Below, piece after piece: positions 25,591 through 38,870 of a DNA stretch of 44,433 nucleotides. A program made the translations under genes and the position numbers. The notes below the pieces were generated by a model. The model saw only the letters and a program-made list of their open reading frames with translations. It ran no database searches and was not told where the DNA came from. Where the stretch lies: positions 1 through 44,433 of the forward strand of contig JADFQD010000010.1 in assembly GCA_022561975.1 (NCBI GenBank), written 5' to 3'. Position 1 is the stretch's first letter; each line of letters starts with the position of its first letter. This DNA is from Acidobacteriota bacterium. Its GTDB lineage: Bacteria; Acidobacteriota; Thermoanaerobaculia; Multivoradales; JAHEKO01.

Positions 25591-26999
25591 TGTTTAGCCG
25601 TTTCGCGGACCTTTCGAACGTTCATTTCATCGGCATCGGTGGCGCCGGGATGAGCGGCATCGCGGAGGTTCTTACGGACTACGATCTTACGGTCACCGGC
25701 TGCGACCTGCGCGAGAGCGAGGCGACGCTAAGGCTACGCAAGCTCGGGGTGAAAGTCGAGATCGGCCATTCGCCGGCGCATCTCGATTCGGTCGACCTGG
25801 TGGTGGTGTCGTCAGCGATCGACGAGGCCAACGTCGAGGTCCGAGGAGCGCGCGAGCGAGGCCTCACGATCGTACGCCGAGCCGAGATGCTGGCGGAACT
25901 GATGCGTCTCAAGTATGGAATCGCGGTGGCCGGCACTCACGGCAAGACCACCACGACATCTTTGATCGGGACCGTGCTGACCGAGGCCGGCCTGGATCCG
26001 ACGGTAATTGTCGGCGGCCGGCTGCGAGTTTCCGGCACCGGTGCCCGGCTGGGCCATAGCGATTACCTGGTTGCGGAGGCCGACGAGTTCGACCGGAGTT
26101 TTCTCAGGCTGCAGCCGATCCTGGCGGTGGTGACCTCGATCGATACGGATCATCTGGACACCTATCGAGATCTCGATGATATCTGCGATGCCTTCGTTCG
26201 ATTTGCTTCGAAGGTGCCGTTTTTCGGCGAGCTCATTGTCTGTCTGGACGACCCCAACGTCCGCGCGATTCTGCCGAGATTGAGCGACCGGCGGACACTG
26301 ACCTACGGCTTCTCGCCGCACGCCGAATTGTCGGCTCGAGACCTCGAATTCGTCGACGGGGGAGCGAGGTTCACCGTGCACTCCGCCACCGACGGACGGC
26401 TCGGCTCAGTCAGGATCCCGCTGCCGGGACGACACAACACCCAGAATGCGCTGGCTGCAATAGCCGTCGGCCGGGCCGTCGGTCTCGACTTCGAGCAGAT
26501 CGCCTCGGCGCTGGAGAAGTTTTCCGGCGTTCATCGTCGCTTCGAGCGCTTGGGAAGTTGGCACGGCGCGGAGGTGATCGACGACTACGCCCACCATCCA
26601 ACCGAGGTGGCGGCGACGCTGGAGGCCGCCCGCTCGGCGTTCCCCGGCAGAAAATTGCACGTTGTCTTCCAGCCGCACCTCTTCAGCCGCACGCGGGATC
26701 AGGCGGAGGCGTTCGGCCAGGCGTTGCTGGCTGCCGACCATGCCATAGTGACCGAGATCTATCCGTCCCGAGAGGCGCCCATCGAGGGGGTGAGCAGCAC
26801 TCTGATCTCCGACGCTGCCAGGCGAGTCGGCCATCCAAAGGTGGAGGACGCGATGGGGTTTGTGGAGGCGAGAGCACAGCTCGAGTCCGCGGTTGATCCC
26901 GGCGCCGTGGTGATTACCATGGGGGCCGGCGATGTGTATCGACTCGCCGCCGAGCTGGCTGCGGAAGGCGCTAAGGAACGAGCGGAGGAATCCGCGTGA
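25590..26999 (+). CDS. murC: UDP-MurNAc:L-alanine ligase MurC
   Basis: MurC adds the first amino acid to UDP-MurNAc. The 469-residue protein shows HFIGIGGAGMSGIAEVL at the N-terminus and the ATP site AGTHGKTTTTSL (about residues 114-125). EADEFDRSFL, RRFERLG, DDYAHHPTEVAATLEAAR and FQPHLFSRT follow, all MurC signatures. It starts in TGATG with murG and ends in a GTGA overlap with ftsQ. In many bacteria murB and ddl follow murC; here ftsQ follows directly. Confidence 0.98.
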   Translation: MFSRFADLSNVHFIGIGGAGMSGIAEVLTDYDLTVTGCDLRESEATLRLRKLGVKVEIGHSPAHLDSVDLVVVSSAIDEANVEVRGARERGLTIVRRAEMLAELMRLKYGIAVAGTHGKTTTTSLIGTVLTEAGLDPTVIVGGRLRVSGTGARLGHSDYLVAEADEFDRSFLRLQPILAVVTSIDTDHLDTYRDLDDICDAFVRFASKVPFFGELIVCLDDPNVRAILPRLSDRRTLTYGFSPHAELSARDLEFVDGGARFTVHSATDGRLGSVRIPLPGRHNTQNALAAIAVGRAVGLDFEQIASALEKFSGVHRRFERLGSWHGAEVIDDYAHHPTEVAATLEAARSAFPGRKLHVVFQPHLFSRTRDQAEAFGQALLAADHAIVTEIYPSREAPIEGVSSTLISDAARRVGHPKVEDAMGFVEARAQLESAVDPGAVVITMGAGDVYRLAAELAAEGAKERAEESA

Positions 27000-27850
27000 G
27001 CGATCGACTGAGACGACCGCCGCTGCCCATGCCCGAGCTGGAGCACTTTCGCCGGCGTCAGTTCGTCTCGCGACATCGCCGCCGAAAGCTGATCTTCCGG
27101 TTGGCCCGGCCCTTTCTGGCGGCCGTAGCGATCGTCGGGCTGCCGAGCGCGCTTGCCGGGTGGATTCTTCTTTCGGACCAATTCATCGTGCAAGAGGTGA
27201 GCGTCGCGAGCACCCGAAGGGTGTCCGCGTCCTGGGCCGAGCAGCGACTCACACCACTGGTCGGGAAGCACCTCTTCGCCGTGGATCTGCGCGACGTGGA
27301 AGCGGCGCTCGCCGACCACAATTGGGTCAGCGGGGCCCGGCTCAGGCGGTGCCCGCCCAACCGCTTGGAGGTCGAGATTCTGGAGAAAGACCCGGTCGCT
27401 TTGATGGTGCAGGGCGAGAGTCTGGCGTACTTGGATCCGGCCGGTCGCGTCATAGGGCCTTTCGATCCGAATGATCCGAGCATCGACTCGGCTGACTTGG
27501 TCTTGATGTCGGCTCCGCAGGACCGGTTGGACCTGGTCGCCAGCGGCCTCGCTTTGCTCGACTCATGGCGCCGAAAGCGGCTGCCTTTCAGCGAGGGTTT
27601 GTCCGAGATCAGCGTTTTGACGTCGACCGATTTTCGGGTGATCACAGCAGGTTTGCCATTTCCGATCTTTGTGTCCTCGCTGAACCTGGCCGACGGACTT
27701 GCCTCGCTGGTCCGGTACGGTCCCCAGCTCGAACGACGATTATTCCGGCTGTCTCCAATCGGAGCGGTCGATCTGAGATTTGGTGGACGAATTGTGTTTC
27801 AACCGGCGGTTCCGAAGCCGCACAACCTGGAGGGCCAAAGAGATGCCTAA
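26996..27850 (+). CDS. ftsQ: Cell division protein FtsQ/DivIB
   Basis: This is a bitopic divisome protein that holds FtsL/FtsB. The 284 residues contain a basic cytoplasmic tail (HFRRRQFVSRHRRRK) and a membrane helix (about 38-58). A POTRA domain follows (about 62-130, FIVQEVSVASTRRVS to RRCPPNRLEVEILEKDPVALM), then the FtsQ beta domain to about 265. The GTG start overlaps the murC stop (GTGA). It overlaps ftsA by 8 bases. Confidence 0.93.
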   Translation: MSDRLRRPPLPMPELEHFRRRQFVSRHRRRKLIFRLARPFLAAVAIVGLPSALAGWILLSDQFIVQEVSVASTRRVSASWAEQRLTPLVGKHLFAVDLRDVEAALADHNWVSGARLRRCPPNRLEVEILEKDPVALMVQGESLAYLDPAGRVIGPFDPNDPSIDSADLVLMSAPQDRLDLVASGLALLDSWRRKRLPFSEGLSEISVLTSTDFRVITAGLPFPIFVSSLNLADGLASLVRYGPQLERRLFRLSPIGAVDLRFGGRIVFQPAVPKPHNLEGQRDA

Positions 27851-29081
27851 GCCGAGTTCCCGCACCGTTGTCATCGACATCGGCTCATCAAAAGTCGGTG
27901 TCTTGATCGGTCAGGCCAATGAGCATGGCTTCATGGAGGTCGTGGGCAAGGGCTACGCCGCCAACCGAGGCACGCGCAAGGGGCACGTTGTCAATGTCGA
28001 GGCCACGGTCGCCGCCTTGAAGAAAGCTTCCGAAGAGGCCGAGGTCATGGCCGGCGTCGAGGTCGATCGCGCCTACGTAGGCATGGCGGGCACCGATGTG
28101 CGCTGTGTCAATTCGCGCGGAATGGTTTCGGTGGCAAGAAAGAACCGAGAGATCAATCGCCTCGACATCGAGCGAGTGCTCGAGGCCGCGCAGGCGGCGG
28201 CGCTGCCCTCGGATCGAGAGATCCTTCATGCTATTCCCCAAGAATTCATCGTCGACGAGCAGGGGGGCATTGCCGATCCGCTCGGAATGACGGGCTCGCG
28301 GCTGGAAGTGGCGGTGCATCTAGTGACCTGCAACACGACGCGCTCGAAGACGCTGCTCACTTGCGTCAACCGTGCCGGTATCGAGGTCGTCGAGATGGTG
28401 TTCGAGCCGCTTGCGACCGCCGAGGCCGCGCTGACTCACGACGAGCGGGAACTCGGCGCTCTGCTGCTCGATATCGGCTCGGGAACCACCGAGTATGCCT
28501 ACTTCTCAGAGGGCGAAGTCCGGCACAGCGGCGTGTTGCCGATGGGATCAGGGCACTTCACCAACGACCTCGCGATGGTGCTGCGCACGCCCTTTGCCGA
28601 GGCCGAGCAGATCAAGGTGCGCTACGGATGCTGCCTGGCCGGTATGCTTGGCGAAGAGCAGGGGATCTCGATTCCGGCGGTTGCGGGTGGTCCACCGCGG
28701 GTGGTCCCGAAGGCCGAACTCTGTCAGATCCTCCAGCCGCGGGCGGAAGAGATTCTGACGCTGGTGCGCAACGACCTGATACGTTCGGGAATGGAAGCGG
28801 ATTTGCGCGGCGGCGTGATCTTGACCGGCGGCGGTGCCCAACTCGACGGCTTGCTGGAAATGGCGGAGCAGATTTTCGATACCGGCGTGCGCTACGGTCT
28901 ACCCCAGGGATTGGGAGGGCTGGTGGACGTCATCAGCTCGCCGATCTGGACGACGGCTTCCGGCCTCCTGCTCTACGGGCAGGCCACTGAGATGAGCAAG
29001 CTGCGGGCCTCCAAGAGCAAGGGCTCCTCCATCCGGGCCGTAGTCGGCAGCTTTAAAGAAATGTTTTCGGATTTACTGTGA
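27843..29081 (+). CDS. ftsA: Cell division protein FtsA
   Basis: FtsA is an actin-like ATPase that ties FtsZ filaments to the membrane. The 412-residue protein has [14 protein letters not shown] at the N-terminus, the second phosphate-binding motif [15 protein letters not shown] near 202-216 and [15 protein letters not shown] near 320. A C-terminal amphipathic helix ([17 protein letters not shown]) is the membrane-targeting sequence. ATG 27843 is preceded by GGAGGG and fits family N-termini; the frame is open further upstream inside ftsQ. The next gene, ftsZ, follows after 28 bases. Confidence 0.97.
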
Positions 29082-29109
29082 TGGACTCAGTCTTCAAAAG
29101 GAGCACGTC

Positions 29110-30420
29110 ATGATTCTATTTAGTGACCAAGACTTGGGCAGCGAACTACCGATCACGTTAGAGGAAGATATCGTGCCGGCTCGGATCAAGGTTATCGGGA
29201 TTGGTGGCGGTGGCGGCAATGCGGTCGATCGCATGATCGACTCGCGTATGGGCGGTATTCAGTTCATTGCCGCGAACACCGATCTTCAGGCCTTGAGGAA
29301 GTGCCGGGCCCCGGAGAAGATCCAGCTCGGAAGTTCCCTGACCCGAGGCCTGGGTGCGGGCGGTAACCCCGAGATCGGGCGCAAATCCGCTCTCGAGGAC
29401 ACCGACCGGATTTTGGAGCTGCTTCAGGGCACCGACATGGTGTTTCTGACCGCAGGCCTCGGTGGTGGCACCGGCACCGGTGGGATACCGATTGTAGCTT
29501 CGCTGGCGGCGGAGATCGGAGCGCTGACGGTGGCGGTCGTGACCAAGCCTTTCGCGTTCGAAGGTCGCCGCAGAATGGAGCAGGCCGAGCGTGGCCTCCA
29601 AGAATTGGAAGAGGCGGTGGATACGTTGATCACCATTCCCAACGAGCGCCTGCTCAGCTTCGTCGAGCGGGGCACGCCCCTGTCCGAGGCCTTCCGCATT
29701 GCCGACGACGTGCTGCGACAGGCGGTCCAGGGCATCAGCGACTTGATCACCGTCCCGGGCGAGATCAACGTGGATTTCGCCGATGTCAAGACGGTGATGA
29801 CCGGCATGGGCATGGCGATCATGGGTACCGGAGTCGCCAGGGGAGAGAACCGAGCCGTCGAGGCCGCACGGAGCGCGATCTCCTCGCCGCTTCTCGAGGA
29901 GACGTCGATCGAGGGTGCGCGCGGCGTCCTGCTCAATATTTCGGGAGGTCGCGATCTGGCGTTGGACGAGGTCGCAGAGGCGGCGCGGGTGATCTCGGAT
30001 GCCGTCGATCCGGATGCCCACATCATCTCGGGGATGGTGATCGACGAGTCCCTCGAGGACGAAATGAAAGTCACGGTCATTGCGACCGGTTTTGCCGGCC
30101 GCGAACGGACCCCGACCGAAAAGCCGCTGGCAGGGCAGGACGACTTCTTCAGTCCGCAGCCATCGGCTGGCGGCGCGGGTGCCGCTGCCTCCGCCGACTC
30201 CAAGCGCAGGGCGCCAAGAGTGGCTCGGTCGCTCGGAGAGACCGAGCTGCGGCCTCGGGCGCAAGCCAATCAGCCGCGACCCGAGCCGCCCGAGAAGGTG
30301 CCCTTCTACCGCAAGGTCATTGCGCAAACCCGAGGTGAAGATCCCGGAGGCTTCGGTCCGAACTGGTCGAATGTCGATGATTTTGACATTCCCACGGTGC
30401 TGCGCAAGCAGATGGATTAA
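29110..30420 (+). CDS. ftsZ: Cell division protein FtsZ
   Basis: FtsZ is the tubulin-like GTPase that forms the Z-ring. The 436 residues carry a short N-terminal extension (about 25 residues), then [22 protein letters not shown](L)QAL, and the tubulin signature [11 protein letters not shown] near 115-125. The T7 loop reads [12 protein letters not shown] disordered Pro/Ala/Arg linker (about 345-400) leads to the C-terminal peptide [14 protein letters not shown], which binds FtsA. Its own strong ribosome site (AAAAGGAG, 9 bases from ATG) is set apart from the overlapping genes upstream. That allows higher FtsZ synthesis than its neighbours. Confidence 0.99.
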
Positions 30421-32414: not shown

Positions 32415-33077
32415 TTAGGCCGAAGATCGAACGTCCGATCGCGCGCCGGGGGGCAGGGTCTCGCCTTCGCTCGCCGGCGCTTGCAAAAGGTACTGGACGT
32501 CCTCGAGGAAGGTCTTCTTCTCCTGCGCTCCGAGGTAGGAGGAGTAGATCAGCCCTTCCCGGTCGAGGATGAAGGTCATCGGGTAGCCTTCCAACCCGCC
32601 GAACATTTTTGTCGAGACGGCCGCCGGGTCGAGGAGAACCGGGTAGGCCATCGCCAGTTTCTCGGCGTACGGGCGGACGATGGCCAGCCCTTCCTTATCG
32701 GTAGAGATCCCGAGGATTGCGAGCTCCCCGGCAGGGATTTCCCGTCGGAGCTGGTTCAGCTCGGGGATCTCGCTGCGACAGGCGATGCACCAAGTGGCCC
32801 AGAAGTTGAGCAGCACGACCCGGCCCCGGTGATCGCTCAGCCGGTGAAGCTCGCCGTCGAGACCCAGAAGCTCAAAGTCGGGGCCGGGCAGCAAACGGGC
32901 CGCCGAACGGGCGTCGATCGCCTGCTCTGGGGGCTCCGGCAACTCAGCCGGCCGGGCGGTCCTTTCTCCACCGCAGCCAAGGCCGGCGAACACCAGGACC
33001 ATCGGTAGTAGAGCGAGAGGCGTCCAACCCGGCCTAGCGATCGGCAGCCGCGGCCTCCCGTTCGCGATGCAGCTCAT
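32415..33077 (-). CDS. TlpA/ResA-like thioredoxin-fold lipoprotein
   Basis: This is an extracytoplasmic thiol-disulfide oxidoreductase. A signal sequence ends in lipobox GLGC (C35), followed by a Pro/Ala linker and a redoxin domain. The active site reads WATWCIAC near residues 92-99, with LLNFWAT before it and the cis-Pro region GYPMTFILDREG near 164-175. TlpA/ResA proteins reduce cytochrome c apoproteins or copper-centre thiols. Its start overlaps the end of the DUF3179 gene by 44 bases, so the two are made together. This context suggests it may keep the DUF3179 partner's Cys or Sec residues reduced. Confidence 0.88.
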   Translation of the reverse strand: MSCIANGRPRLPIARPGWTPLALLPMVLVFAGLGCGGERTARPAELPEPPEQAIDARSAARLLPGPDFELLGLDGELHRLSDHRGRVVLLNFWATWCIACRSEIPELNQLRREIPAGELAILGISTDKEGLAIVRPYAEKLAMAYPVLLDPAAVSTKMFGGLEGYPMTFILDREGLIYSSYLGAQEKKTFLEDVQYLLQAPASEGETLPPGARSDVRSSA

Positions 33078-33750
33078 CGATGGTACCGGTCATCTCGCCC
33101 CGACCCTCGCAGTGCGCGCAGGTCAGCACCAAGGTCTCCGGGTGCTGTTGTCGCCACTCGCCCCAGCGAACGACGCCCCAGGCTTCGGCGGGCAGCTCTT
33201 CCAGCTTCTGCCCTCGGCGCGCACCCTCCAAGCCCTCTCCCGAACTCTGCAGCCAGAGCGAGTCGCTCTGTGTGTCGTACATCACCAAGTTGCCATCGAC
33301 CAGTTTGCCCGACACCCCGAGGGTCAGCTCCTTCCCATCTACGCGGCGGTCGTGAACCACGACCGATTGTTCGGAAGGTCACCACGATGCCGCGATCGGC
33401 ACCCCCCCCAGCGTATCGTTGACGATCTGGTGGTTCTTGAGCACGTAGAGAGGGTAGGCGCGGTGAATGCCGCCGAGGCTGACCCCGACCACGCTGACGC
33501 CGCTCGCGAGGCCGGCCTCCGCGCCGGTCACGAACGTCGGACGGACGAGGGCCAGTTTGGCGTCTCGGGCCCGGTATTCGAGCAGGCCGTGAAACGCCTC
33601 GCCGCCGGTGATCGTGAGCTCTTCGGCGGCGTCCGCGGCCGGCTCTGCCGTCGAATCCTGGGCCTGGCTGCAGGCCGGGATTATCAGTAGCCCCAGCAAC
33701 GCGAGCGTGGCGGCGGTGAGCCATCTTCTGTTTCCGGATCGTCTGCTCAT
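33034..33750 (-). CDS. DUF3179 family lipoprotein, candidate selenoprotein (in-frame TGA)
   Basis: The frame runs for 239 codons, interrupted only by TGA at codon 124 (33379-33381). Signal peptide with lipobox IIPAC is followed by the DUF3179 core: YPLYVLKNHQIVNDTLGGVP, then W-TGA-PSEQSVVVHDRRVDG, then SGKLVDGNLVMYD...DSLW. In the family the TGA position is the first Cys of a (W/Y)CPxC motif; the second Cys is Glu here. Thirteen bases after the TGA a perfect 8-bp hairpin has loop GTT, 21 nt from TGA to loop, as in bacterial SECIS elements. A CAHC pair near the C-terminus could be a redox partner. Selenocysteine at 124 is inferred; a nonsense-mutated pseudogene is the alternative. The start ATGA overlaps the CRTAC1 gene stop. 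Confidence 0.65.
33347..33365 (-). promoter_or_regulatory. Candidate bacterial SECIS hairpin
   Basis: On the minus strand the arms CGGTCGTG and CACGACCG form a perfect 8-bp stem closing a GTT loop, beginning 13 bases after the TGA at 33381-33379. Known bacterial SECIS elements lie inside the coding region, with the loop about 16-37 nt after the UGA and a G in the first two loop positions. This hairpin meets those conditions. The sequence also encodes conserved residues (SVVVHDR), so chance folding cannot be ruled out. Confidence 0.5.
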
Positions 33751-35537
33751 CTTTGCGTCTCTTCTGTCGGTTGGTCTTCGCCCCAGGGTCGCGAAGGACG
33801 GGGTGCCGCTGGAACCTCCGTCCAGCCGCTCCTATCCTTCCACAAGCGTATACGCCTGTCGGCGCCAACCGGACCGGTTTCGGTGACCCCACCGCCCGGC
33901 CAGCGGACCTCGATCCGGCTCGCTTCGCTGGCGCCTCCGAGGCCGAAGTGGAGAACCGGCGAGTTCGACCCGGCCCAGCTTTCACCCACCAGCAGTTGGC
34001 GGATCTGGCTCTGCCCGCCGCTTTCAACCGTCACCTTGGCGCCCACCGCCCAGCGATTCGGCGCCTCGCCCACCAGCTCGATCTCCAGCCAGTGTCCCTG
34101 GACCGGCGAACGGTTGGCGAGTAGGAGAATCGGTCCGTTGTGGACCAGAACCGCGACATCGATCAGTCCGTCGCGGTCGTAATCGGCAAAACTGGCGCCG
34201 CGGCCGACGATCGGCGCCCCGAAGGCGGCCCCGGCCGTCGAGGAGACATCCTCGAAGCGGCCGTTCACGTTCTGATAGAGAAGCATCTTCTGAGGGATCA
34301 TCTTGGGGTCTCTCAGCACCTCGAGCGTCCACTCATCCTCGACGGTGGAGCCGTTCACGACCAGCAGGTCGTCGTCGCCGTCGAGTTCGAAGTCGAAGAA
34401 ACCGGTGCCCCAGCCGACCAGCGCCGGATCGATCGGCGCCAGGCGATGCTCGATCGTGGTGTCGGCGAAGAGCAGCAGTCCGTCCTCCGACAGGTTGCGG
34501 TAGAGGGCGTTGTCCTCGCCGACCCAGTGGGTGAGAAAGAGGTCGAGCCGGCCGTCCCGGTCATAGTCGGCGACGGCGGCACCCATGCCGGCGCGAGGGT
34601 CGCGGGTGCCGGCTTCGATCGAGACCTCCTCGAAGGTGCCGTCGCCCTGGTTGCGGTAGAGCCGGTCGAAGCTCTGGTCATTGCTGACATAGAGATCGGG
34701 CCAACCGTCGTCGTCGAAGTCGGCAAAGACGGCCTGGAGACCCCGCCCCGTGCTGTCCGCCAACCCCGAGCGCTCGGCGATCTCGGTGAACCGACCGCCG
34801 CCGTCGTTCTCGAAGAACAGATCCTGCTGGGGTGGGTAGTCGGCGGGGGTGGTCATGGTGGCGGGTCGCCCTCCCACCTCGGGCCGCTCGGGCACCCGGT
34901 CCCACGGAAAATCGACATAGCAGGGAACGTAGAGATCGAGGTCGCCGTCGCGGTCGAAGTCGGCGAGCGCCGGGCCGTTGGCGATGCAGTCGACCCGGCC
35001 GAGACCGGCGCCGACGCTGGCGTTCTCGAAGCTGCCGTCACCCAGGTTCCTGAACAGGACGATCTCGTCCAGGCCGGTGATCAGCAGGTCGAGCCAGCCG
35101 TCGCCGTCGACGTCCGCCCAGACGGCGCCGTTGTGCCAGCCGACGTGCTCGAGGCCGGCGGTAGTGGTGACGTCTTCGAAGGTGCCGTCGGCCAGATTGC
35201 GGAAGAGCTTGCCGCCGGTACGCTGGGCCAACTCTTCCCTCGATAACAGCACAGACCCGGCCAGGTTGGGGACAAAGAGGTCGTCGAAGCCATCGTTGTC
35301 ATAGTCGCCGAAGGCGAGTCCGGAGCCGTTGTCTTCGGGCAGGAGGGCGTTGCGGCGGTCGTTGAAGTGATGAAAATCGAGTCCGGCCTGGGCGGCGACC
35401 TCTGCGAAGACGATCGCGCCGGCGGGTGGCGAGGTGGAATCTACCGGGTTATCTCTGGCCGCCTCGTCTCCGCCGTTTCCAGTACACGCGAGGATGGCGA
35501 GCGGAACGAACACAGCGAGATAGCGAATCGCGCGCAT
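33747..35537 (-). CDS. CRTAC1-family FG-GAP/VCBS beta-propeller lipoprotein with ASPIC/UnbV domain
   Basis: A signal sequence with lipobox LAILAC precedes about seven calcium-binding FG-GAP/VCBS blades of the pattern (F/W)(A/G)DxDxDGxxDL. Examples are AFGDYDNDGFDDLF, VWADVDGDGWLDLL, ADFDRDGDLDLYV, ADFDDDGWPDLYV and ADYDRDGRLDLF. The C-terminal ASPIC/UnbV domain (HWLEIELVG...VGAKVTVESGGQSQIRQL...HFGLG) ends the 596-residue protein. Such proteins act outside the cytoplasm, probably in adhesion or as scaffolds. ATG 35537 is chosen because the lipoprotein signal starts there; an upstream in-frame ATG/GTG at 35591 would add 18 residues. It is the first gene of the minus-strand operon with DUF3179 and TlpA. 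Confidence 0.88.
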   Translation of the reverse strand: MRAIRYLAVFVPLAILACTGNGGDEAARDNPVDSTSPPAGAIVFAEVAAQAGLDFHHFNDRRNALLPEDNGSGLAFGDYDNDGFDDLFVPNLAGSVLLSREELAQRTGGKLFRNLADGTFEDVTTTAGLEHVGWHNGAVWADVDGDGWLDLLITGLDEIVLFRNLGDGSFENASVGAGLGRVDCIANGPALADFDRDGDLDLYVPCYVDFPWDRVPERPEVGGRPATMTTPADYPPQQDLFFENDGGGRFTEIAERSGLADSTGRGLQAVFADFDDDGWPDLYVSNDQSFDRLYRNQGDGTFEEVSIEAGTRDPRAGMGAAVADYDRDGRLDLFLTHWVGEDNALYRNLSEDGLLLFADTTIEHRLAPIDPALVGWGTGFFDFELDGDDDLLVVNGSTVEDEWTLEVLRDPKMIPQKMLLYQNVNGRFEDVSSTAGAAFGAPIVGRGASFADYDRDGLIDVAVLVHNGPILLLANRSPVQGHWLEIELVGEAPNRWAVGAKVTVESGGQSQIRQLLVGESWAGSNSPVLHFGLGGASEASRIEVRWPGGGVTETGPVGADRRIRLWKDRSGWTEVPAAPRPSRPWGEDQPTEETQR

Positions 35538-35910
35538 GGCTTTCTTGGGTCGAGGGTGCCGGCCGGCGTGGCCAGGCGGCGGGAACTCCACCTCGGGGAG
35601 GTGGGGAGCGCGAAGTATAGCGGCGAAGAGGCCGATCGACCGGGCAGGGCGCAGATTAGGTCCAATCCGTCGTCCCGTTCGGGCTGCACCCGTCTGGTAC
35701 CATTGGGTTTAGTGACCCCCGGAGAGTCGAACCAGGAGACAATCTCATGGGTAATGGCCGCCATCGACCCGGGCCAGAGCCGTCTCGAAGCGATGGCAAG
35801 CCGGTGGAACGAGTGCAGGGTGCTGATCGGAAGCGTGGTCGAGTCGTCGAGTCGTTGAGCTCGCCTGGGCCGGGGCCTGGAGGAAGAGCAAGCGGAGGTT
35901 TCATAGAGCC
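35538..35910. other. Intergenic region with promoter-like element and small ORF
   Basis: This 373-base gap separates the divergent CRTAC1 and SPFH genes. An extended -10, TGGTACCAT at 35695-35703, points right. A GTG-started frame at 35712-35858 follows (separate entry). A second, overlapping frame from ATG 35747 would give 55 residues rich in Arg/Pro/Gly with poor codon bias; I do not call it. GGAGG at 35894-35898 lies 12 bases before the SPFH gene's ATG. Confidence 0.5.
35712..35858 (+). CDS. Possible 48-residue small protein
   Basis: GTG 35712 opens a 48-codon frame ending at TGA 35858. It lies 9 bases after the putative -10 TGGTACCAT, so it would be a leaderless or near-leaderless message. 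From ATG 35754 onward the third codon positions are mostly G or C, as in the genome's real genes. The peptide (ending WNECRVLIGSVVESSSR) has no recognisable domain. It may be a true small protein upstream of the SPFH gene, or the region may simply be that gene's leader. Confidence 0.25.
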   Translation: MTPGESNQETISWVMAAIDPGQSRLEAMASRWNECRVLIGSVVESSSR

Positions 35911-37459: not shown

Positions 37460-37813
37460 CTAACCGCGCCTGCGCAGTCCGAGGAGCAGCGCGAGCCCAT
37501 CGTCGATGGCCTCCAGTTCGTCGGTCGCGATCTTGCCGAAAACCTTGTGGACGTGTCGCTTGTCGATGGTGCGGATCTGATCGAGCAAAGCAAAAGAACG
37601 CCTGCGCAGGTCACCGGAACCGGACGCCAGCGCCGGATAGAGAGTACCTCTTCCGGGCGTGCCGGTGATCGGTACGACACAGAGCAGCGGATAGCGTTGG
37701 TCTTCCGTGACATCGGGATCGCTGACAATGATGCACGGGCGCAGGCCCCGTTGCTCATGACCGAGGGTGGGGTCGAGGCTGACCAGAACGACGGTACCGC
37801 GGTCGAGCTTCAC
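37460..37813 (-). CDS. MazF/PemK-type mRNA interferase toxin
   Basis: This is a 117-residue endoribonuclease toxin of type II systems. The opening RGTVVLVSLDPTLGHEQRGLRPCIIVS, then CVVPITGTPGRG and FALLDQIRTIDK, are the core MazF motifs. The Arg in EQRG and the Thr in PIT lie at the active site. I chose GTG 37813 because it forms GTGA with the antitoxin stop and gives the usual N-terminus; an upstream frame to 37849 only extends into the antitoxin gene. It would cut specific mRNA sites when the antitoxin is lost. Confidence 0.88.
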   Translation of the reverse strand: MKLDRGTVVLVSLDPTLGHEQRGLRPCIIVSDPDVTEDQRYPLLCVVPITGTPGRGTLYPALASGSGDLRRRSFALLDQIRTIDKRHVHKVFGKIATDELEAIDDGLALLLGLRRRG

Positions 37814-38112
37814 TCGTCGATCTTGACCCAGCCCTGGCCTGGAGACCACCGGACCGAACTGCCGCCCTGGGTATCGAGCAGCTCCTCGTCTTCGGCGGTG
37901 CCCCGGTCAGCCCATTCGCTCAGGCCAACCTCGGCCACTTCCCCGCTCTGTGGATGGGGGCTTTCGACCGATGCGAGCAGCTCCTGGCGCCGTCGGCTCT
38001 CGAGCTCGTGCTCGACAGCCTCGAGGATGAACCGGCTGCGGTTCCGCTCACGTCGATCGATGTCTCTCACTAACTCGTCGGGCAGGGTAATCGTGATGCG
38101 AGCCTTCGGCAC
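37810..38112 (-). CDS. Ribbon-helix-helix antitoxin of the MazF toxin
   Basis: The 100-residue protein begins with a ribbon-helix-helix DNA-binding domain (ARITITLPDELVRDIDRRERNRSRFILEAVEHEL, residues 4-38). The acidic C-terminal part is likely disordered and would wrap the toxin. It starts with GTG and ends in a GTGA overlap with mazF. A palindromic operator lies just upstream, so it probably represses its own operon, more strongly with toxin bound. Confidence 0.85.
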   Translation of the reverse strand: MPKARITITLPDELVRDIDRRERNRSRFILEAVEHELESRRRQELLASVESPHPQSGEVAEVGLSEWADRGTAEDEELLDTQGGSSVRWSPGQGWVKIDE

Positions 38113-38238: not shown

Positions 38239-38472
38239 ATGAAGAAAATGGCCGTTTCCGAATTCAAGGCGAAGTGCATCGCCGTTCTCCGCGAGGCCCA
38301 GCAGACCGGAGAGTCGATTCTCGTAACCAGAAGAGGGCGACCTTTCGCTCGGGTCGAGCCTGTTCGAGAGACTTCTTCGGAACGGCCCCTGGGCGTGTTC
38401 AAAGGCCGGATGAAGATCCATGGAGACCTCGTCCACACCGACTCTTCAGCCGACTGGGAGGTACTCGGGTGA
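38239..38472 (+). CDS. Phd/YefM-type antitoxin
   Basis: This 77-residue protein has the Phd/YefM fold at its N-terminus: MAVSEFKAKCIAVLREAQQTGESILVTRRGRPFARVEPV. This is the beta-hairpin/helix layout that binds DNA and then the toxin. The acidic C-terminal part (DLVHTDSSADWEVL) is the likely toxin-binding tail. It starts at ATG 38239 (ATG 38248 is an alternative). Its TGA overlaps the GTG of the PIN toxin. Confidence 0.85.
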   Translation: MKKMAVSEFKAKCIAVLREAQQTGESILVTRRGRPFARVEPVRETSSERPLGVFKGRMKIHGDLVHTDSSADWEVLG

Positions 38473-38870
38473 GGCTGCTGCTCGACACCCATGTCTGGAT
38501 CTGGACTCAGGAGCAGCCGGGTCGGTTGGGCGACGCCACGACTCAGAGCCTGGCGGATCCCGAGACGAGCCTGCACGTCTCGACCATCTCCACCCTCGAG
38601 ATCTCTCGCCTGGTCGCGATGGGGACGATAGAACTCTCCGGCTCGCTGGACTCATGGGTGACCGATACTCTCGGCTCCCTGTTCTGCTCGACCATCGAGA
38701 TGTCACATGGGATCGCTGCGGGAGCGTACTCACTGCCTCCGAGTCTCCACAAGGATCCGGCGGATCGCGTCCTGATCGCCACAGCGAGACTGCACGACCT
38801 CACTCTGCTGACCGCCGATGAGAGGATCCTCTCTTATCCCCACGTACAGACTCTCGACGCCCGGAGGTAA
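38469..38870 (+). CDS. PIN-domain (VapC-like) toxin
   Basis: This is a 133-residue PIN nuclease, most like the PIN_Sll0205 type that pairs with Phd antitoxins. The acidic metal-binding set is present: D6 (LLLDTHVWIW), E44 (STLEISRLV), D99 (KDPADRVLIATA) and D117 (LLTADERIL). The GTG start is in a GTGA overlap with the antitoxin gene. VapC toxins cut tRNA or rRNA; the target here is unknown. Confidence 0.87.
   Translation: MRLLLDTHVWIWTQEQPGRLGDATTQSLADPETSLHVSTISTLEISRLVAMGTIELSGSLDSWVTDTLGSLFCSTIEMSHGIAAGAYSLPPSLHKDPADRVLIATARLHDLTLLTADERILSYPHVQTLDARR

Follow-up and report, generated by a model that had tools for sequence, protein, structure and literature searches.

The window, that is, the whole stretch of 44,433 nucleotides of Acidobacteriota DNA that was analysed, contains a minus-strand operon in which a short DUF3179 gene with an internal TGA lies between genes for an FG-GAP/UnbV_ASPIC repeat protein and a TlpA/ResA-like protein (Table 1). 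A sequence-only reading of this DNA had described a DUF3179 frame interrupted by a single TGA, without mention of the strand. Read on the plus strand, the interval gives a meaningless frame; the DUF3179 frame runs on the minus strand from 33750 downwards, and translation with TGA as a residue gives one in-frame TGA only, as had been claimed. The product matches the Pfam family PF11376 (DUF3179) with an E-value of 2.1e-42 and 146 bits, against a cut-off of 27. Since residues 68–212 align with positions 7–150 of the 292-position profile, only the first half of the DUF3179 family is present. The protein is exported, with a signal peptide and a probable lipobox at Cys27. Its previous designation as a lipoprotein holds in part: judged by eye, the lipobox Cys is found in four of six short forms of the gene and is absent from the two in genomes G423 and G152. 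No NCBIfam model matched the short protein, so automatic annotation probably truncates the gene at the UGA. PADLOC gave no match, and no metal-binding family was matched in Pfam or NCBIfam.

Table 1. Features of the short DUF3179 locus (window coordinates)
Feature	Position	Strand	Remarks
FG-GAP / UnbV_ASPIC repeat protein gene, upstream partner	33747..35591	(-)	Neighbour in all five orthologues
Short one-repeat Sec-DUF3179 gene	33034..33750	(-)	238 aa, ATG start, TAG stop; PF11376 match
UGA codon 124, predicted to be read as selenocysteine	33379..33381	(-)	Family CPxC first-Cys column; TGA in 6/6 short orthologues
Putative bacterial SECIS hairpin, CGGTCGTG-GTT-CACGACCG	33347..33365	(-)	bSECIS rules, low synonymous divergence, covarying stem
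C-terminal CAHC (CxxCxGxG), residues 211-214	33109..33120	(-)	Conserved in 6/6 short forms; proposed resolving cysteines
TlpA/ResA-like thioredoxin-fold lipoprotein gene, WCIAC active site, downstream partner	32415..33077	(-)	4/4 orthologues with enough flank

The TGA stop of the UnbV gene overlaps the DUF3179 start (ATGA). At the other end, the thioredoxin-fold neighbour, which had been recognized correctly, overlaps the end of the DUF3179 gene; its true start may lie inside. This downstream protein shares its fold and a WCxxC motif with the TlpA/ResA-type oxidoreductases (PF00578), but has Cys instead of the Sec of the WAxxUGC relatives in NF041054, and it scores below every NCBIfam cut-off. 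The order FG-GAP/UnbV–short DUF3179–TlpA-like is found in the window and at the four orthologous loci with both flanks; the fifth orthologue lies at a contig end and keeps the UnbV side.

These orthologues came from a search of the class in which the read-through protein was the query. Each of the five (67–71% identity, from families f1, f3, f4 and f7) contains a single TGA, and its codon position is the same in all. Among the sampled Acidobacteriota, relatives more than 60% identical to the short form were found only in the window's own order. The dN/dS ratio downstream of the TGA is 0.08–0.17, as low as in the upstream part, indicating strong purifying selection. In an alignment of 47 homologues, the column of residue 124 is that of the first Cys of the family CPxC motif, and both Cys homologues and further TGA copies occupy it. 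The earlier placement of the TGA at this Cys is thus upheld for the column, although the second motif Cys is not kept, being replaced by Glu in the short form (W-U-P-S-E). His107, close to residue 124 in the sequence, and Asn111 are invariant. The short forms make up one clade (support 100/100) nested within a Sec-DUF3179 clade (99/97) that also includes a single Cys form, L033. In three other homologues (L062, L065 and L069), Asp replaces the motif Cys/Sec (YDPLC), which gives the catalytic column a third naturally occurring state. A DUF3179 match at G069:C59:4105-4557 contains one TGA and one TAG, and is probably either a true pseudogene or the result of a sequencing error.

The source genome is a metagenome-assembled genome, 86.7% complete in 215 contigs, and carries the selenocysteine machinery. 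We found selA (344 bits), selB (352 bits, above the curated cut-off), selD (265 bits) and a tRNA-Sec gene (selC) with anticodon UCA (73.8 bits against a gathering score of 47). All lie on contigs other than that of the window, and the relatives agree on their presence, SelA being found in 140 of the 149 genomes of the class. Across the phylum, TGA-DUF3179 genes are widespread, occurring in at least 46 of 396 sampled genomes. Among the matches listed, selA was present in 44 of these 46, against 254/396 in the whole sample counted among the rows listed (Fisher P = 3e-7, for genomes that are not independent of each other). The two TGA-DUF3179 genomes in which selA was not found are G046 and G317. 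In two of the orthologues, L051 and L052, the short gene itself terminates at a further TGA, the end having been set mechanically as the next TGA; in an mRNA from either, one UGA would specify Sec and another would terminate translation.

Published rules for the bacterial SECIS element (bSECIS) specify a loop of 3–9 nt, a stem of 4–16 bp, a G in the first two loop positions, a spacing of 16–37 nt and a minimum free energy of at most −7.5 (PMC13188914). The hairpin downstream of the TGA is exactly as had been reported, with an 8 bp stem starting 13 nt past the TGA and a GTT loop, which is 21 nt past the UGA. It conforms to these rules in all six short orthologues (−9.3 to −11.6 kcal/mol). Taken alone, the hairpin is moderately unusual, as an equally good one by the same rules occurs at 2.1% of 3245 coding positions in the window; it is significant because it is conserved and covarying. 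Of the 88 windows of the gene, the one with the least synonymous divergence is that of the hairpin codons, +4 to +11 from the UGA (permutation P = 0.005). Where third bases vary in these codons, they do so in the loop, at the pair closing it or in the last codon.

The stem was then compared between 33 Sec-DUF3179 genes and 14 Cys/Asp forms, using an ungapped alignment from the UGA. In the Sec homologues, 95.7% of stem cells were paired and four pairs were altered on both sides, counts that are inflated by the relatedness of the sequences. The covariation score was matched by none of 500 shuffles, and sliding the partner abolished the signal. In the Cys/Asp homologues, only 36.7% of stem cells were paired, the level expected by chance from the shuffles. 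The WUPLAN-type long paralogues, including the source genome's second copy, failed a strict hairpin test in 9 of 15 cases because of stem mismatch; several long paralogues of family f1 have one stem mismatch. L033 is an apparent Sec-to-Cys reversion and has no hairpin at the corresponding site, whereas its sisters L031, L037 and L045 keep theirs, providing a natural control pair.

The machinery in the genome, the conserved TGA and hairpin, the covariation in Sec homologues alone and the purifying selection downstream together make it very probable that UGA124 encodes selenocysteine, as had been proposed, and that this is a genuine selenoprotein gene. SelB and tRNA-Sec would decode the codon under the direction of the adjacent downstream hairpin. 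One could instead regard the gene as a nonsense-mutated pseudogene in which translation truly stops at the TGA and the sequence beyond it is decaying, since TGA is an ordinary stop in the source genome and the second half of DUF3179 is missing. However, the same TGA is kept in six genomes of four families, dN/dS past it is about 0.1 with no further stop or frameshift, the operon is intact, and the short length is a feature of a fully supported clade. The signs of such decay named at the outset, namely a lack of sel genes, or other codons or extra stops in relatives, are absent in the short-form orthologues. We therefore consider a pseudogene extremely improbable. It is also very improbable that the UGA is read as some other amino acid, through genome-wide recoding to Trp or Gly or through leaky readthrough. 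Readthrough would likewise conserve the 3′ part, but ftsA and the UnbV gene in the window terminate at TGA, so the genetic code is not globally changed. Further, selA, selB, selC and selD are all present, the TGA falls at a family Cys column with Cys homologues, and the covarying SECIS-like stem is confined to TGA forms.

Selenocysteine in DUF3179 proteins is not in itself new. Two reviews (PMC9312934, 2022; PMC13188914, 2026) include Sec-DUF3179 (PF11376, motif UxxC/T) among the predicted selenoprotein families, and both credit it to the Olavius symbiont paper of Zhang and Gladyshev 2007 (doi 10.1093/nar/gkm514); the tables of the ocean-survey paper do not contain it. Thus, the suggestion of a new selenoprotein fails at the level of the family. 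The reviewed family is the same Pfam family, and its UxxC/T motif fits a Sec at the same Cys column, but the short form differs from it in having a single repeat where that family has two, UPSE in place of UxxC/T, a C-terminal CAHC and the UnbV–DUF3179–TlpA operon. This combination of one repeat, UPSE, CAHC and gene order seems not to have been described so far.

A typical DUF3179 protein is a tandem duplication (hhalign of the N-terminal against the C-terminal half, probability 99.7) whose second repeat lacks the cysteine, and the short form has the first repeat only. Long two-repeat Sec-DUF3179 proteins (L001 and 26 others in alignment A3) belong to the same Sec clade and have the same UGA–hairpin spacing; they differ from the short form in their second repeat, their WUPLA or WUPLC motif and the lack of a CAHC tail. 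None of the six short forms has the UxxC/T motif of the reviews (UPSE, with UASE in one orthologue). Most of the long forms here have UPLA, so UxxC/T looks too narrow as a strict criterion. The CAHC pair near the C-terminus, the existence of which had been noted correctly, is absent from the long forms. Sec124 and the CAHC cysteines are the sole Cys/Sec positions of the mature protein that are conserved in all six short forms, the only other Cys being that of the lipobox where present. The source genome itself holds two further copies. One, on the minus strand at L001:1486-2712 (G000:C111), is a two-repeat Sec form with the motif WUPLANTAVVYDR, 35% identical to the short form, and adjoins a moaA-like gene; the other (C112, L003) has neither the motif nor a TGA.

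Searches with a single sequence or a profile found no solved structure. Two structures were predicted. The core of the short-form model, about residues 71–210, has a pLDDT above 94, and the CAHC loop is of lower confidence (about 72). Compared with the PDB (VIA), this model gave matches from Z = 7.1 down to 5.3, and each of the 50 entries listed was either a Rieske protein or an enzyme containing a Rieske domain or subunit. For the long paralogue, modelled with a pLDDT of 93, Rieske matches were at Z = 7.0–4.3 and unrelated ones from 3.6 down. Foldseek was less decisive, with an E-value of 0.012 at best for the short model and no meaningful top match for the long one. Because the Z values are below 8 and the Foldseek E-values weak, the predicted DUF3179 models are best said to resemble the Rieske beta fold, the case for a relationship being weaker. 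Rieske domains (for example PDB 2qpz, 3gce and 5cxm) superimpose on the predicted fold with an rmsd of 2.5–3.1 Å over about 92 residues, but their sequence relation to DUF3179 is undetectable, and the short form is without the CxH...CxxH cluster ligands. The CPxC motif resembles the CPxH of Rieske proteins. We considered Sec124 as a cluster ligand and rejected this, as the aligned range starts at residue 93, equivalent to chain residue 2, which in a rough register, estimated from the alignment ranges and the ferredoxin sequence, would place Sec124 before the first ligand loop.

These features can be combined into a model of function. The short form would be a member of the known Sec-DUF3179 family that has a single repeat and is secreted and mostly anchored to the membrane; in it, a clusterless Rieske-like beta domain would present Sec124 together with His107 and Asn111. 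Sec124 may act as a catalytic selenol. Because the second motif Cys (UPxC) is a Glu here, CAHC is proposed to serve as the resolver instead, acting on a selenenic or selenenylsulfide intermediate, and the TlpA-like thioredoxin of the operon would reduce the resulting CAHC disulfide. The FG-GAP/UnbV protein might be the substrate, a scaffold or an anchoring partner. Redox chemistry with CAHC as the resolving pair and TlpA as the reductant is a tentative proposal, which we put somewhat below an even chance. The same degree of caution applies to the fuller picture, in which a rearranged Sec enzyme of clusterless Rieske-like fold has its CxxC recharged by the operon's TlpA-like reductase and acts on or with the FG-GAP/UnbV protein. 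If true, the operon would encode a dedicated extracytoplasmic Sec–thioredoxin relay.

The main rival for the function is a metal-handling role of Sec, His and CAHC. The protein might use Sec to bind a metal or sulfur, for example as a copper-handling factor, with TlpA keeping the selenol reduced in the manner of Sco or CcmG-type helpers. The sequence CAHC with GxG after it is typical of metal knuckles. Its occurrence here, the invariant His107 near Sec124, the conserved TlpA-like partner and the redox-inactive Asp that stands in place of Cys in some relatives are all consistent with metal binding. On the other hand, the absence of any metal-binding family match argues against it, as does the mostly redox function of Sec in the listed bacterial families (PMC13188914), and we judge this role unlikely.

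As an experimental system the short form is tractable: it has 238 residues, one conserved Sec and one conserved CxxC, and a candidate reductase is encoded next to it. With these, the function of DUF3179 and its need for Sec are directly testable. The resemblance to the Rieske fold and the tandem duplication give structural starting points for the study of this family of unknown function.

Elsewhere in the window, a cell-division cluster with ftsQ-, ftsA- and ftsZ-like genes (26996-30420, plus strand) lies just upstream of the DUF3179 gene, on the opposite strand; FtsZ alone was identified by Pfam. At 37460-38112 (minus strand) and 38274-38870 (plus strand), we recognized by eye a gene resembling MazF/PemK, a small gene partnering it and a PIN-like gene close by, which are possible toxin–antitoxin modules.
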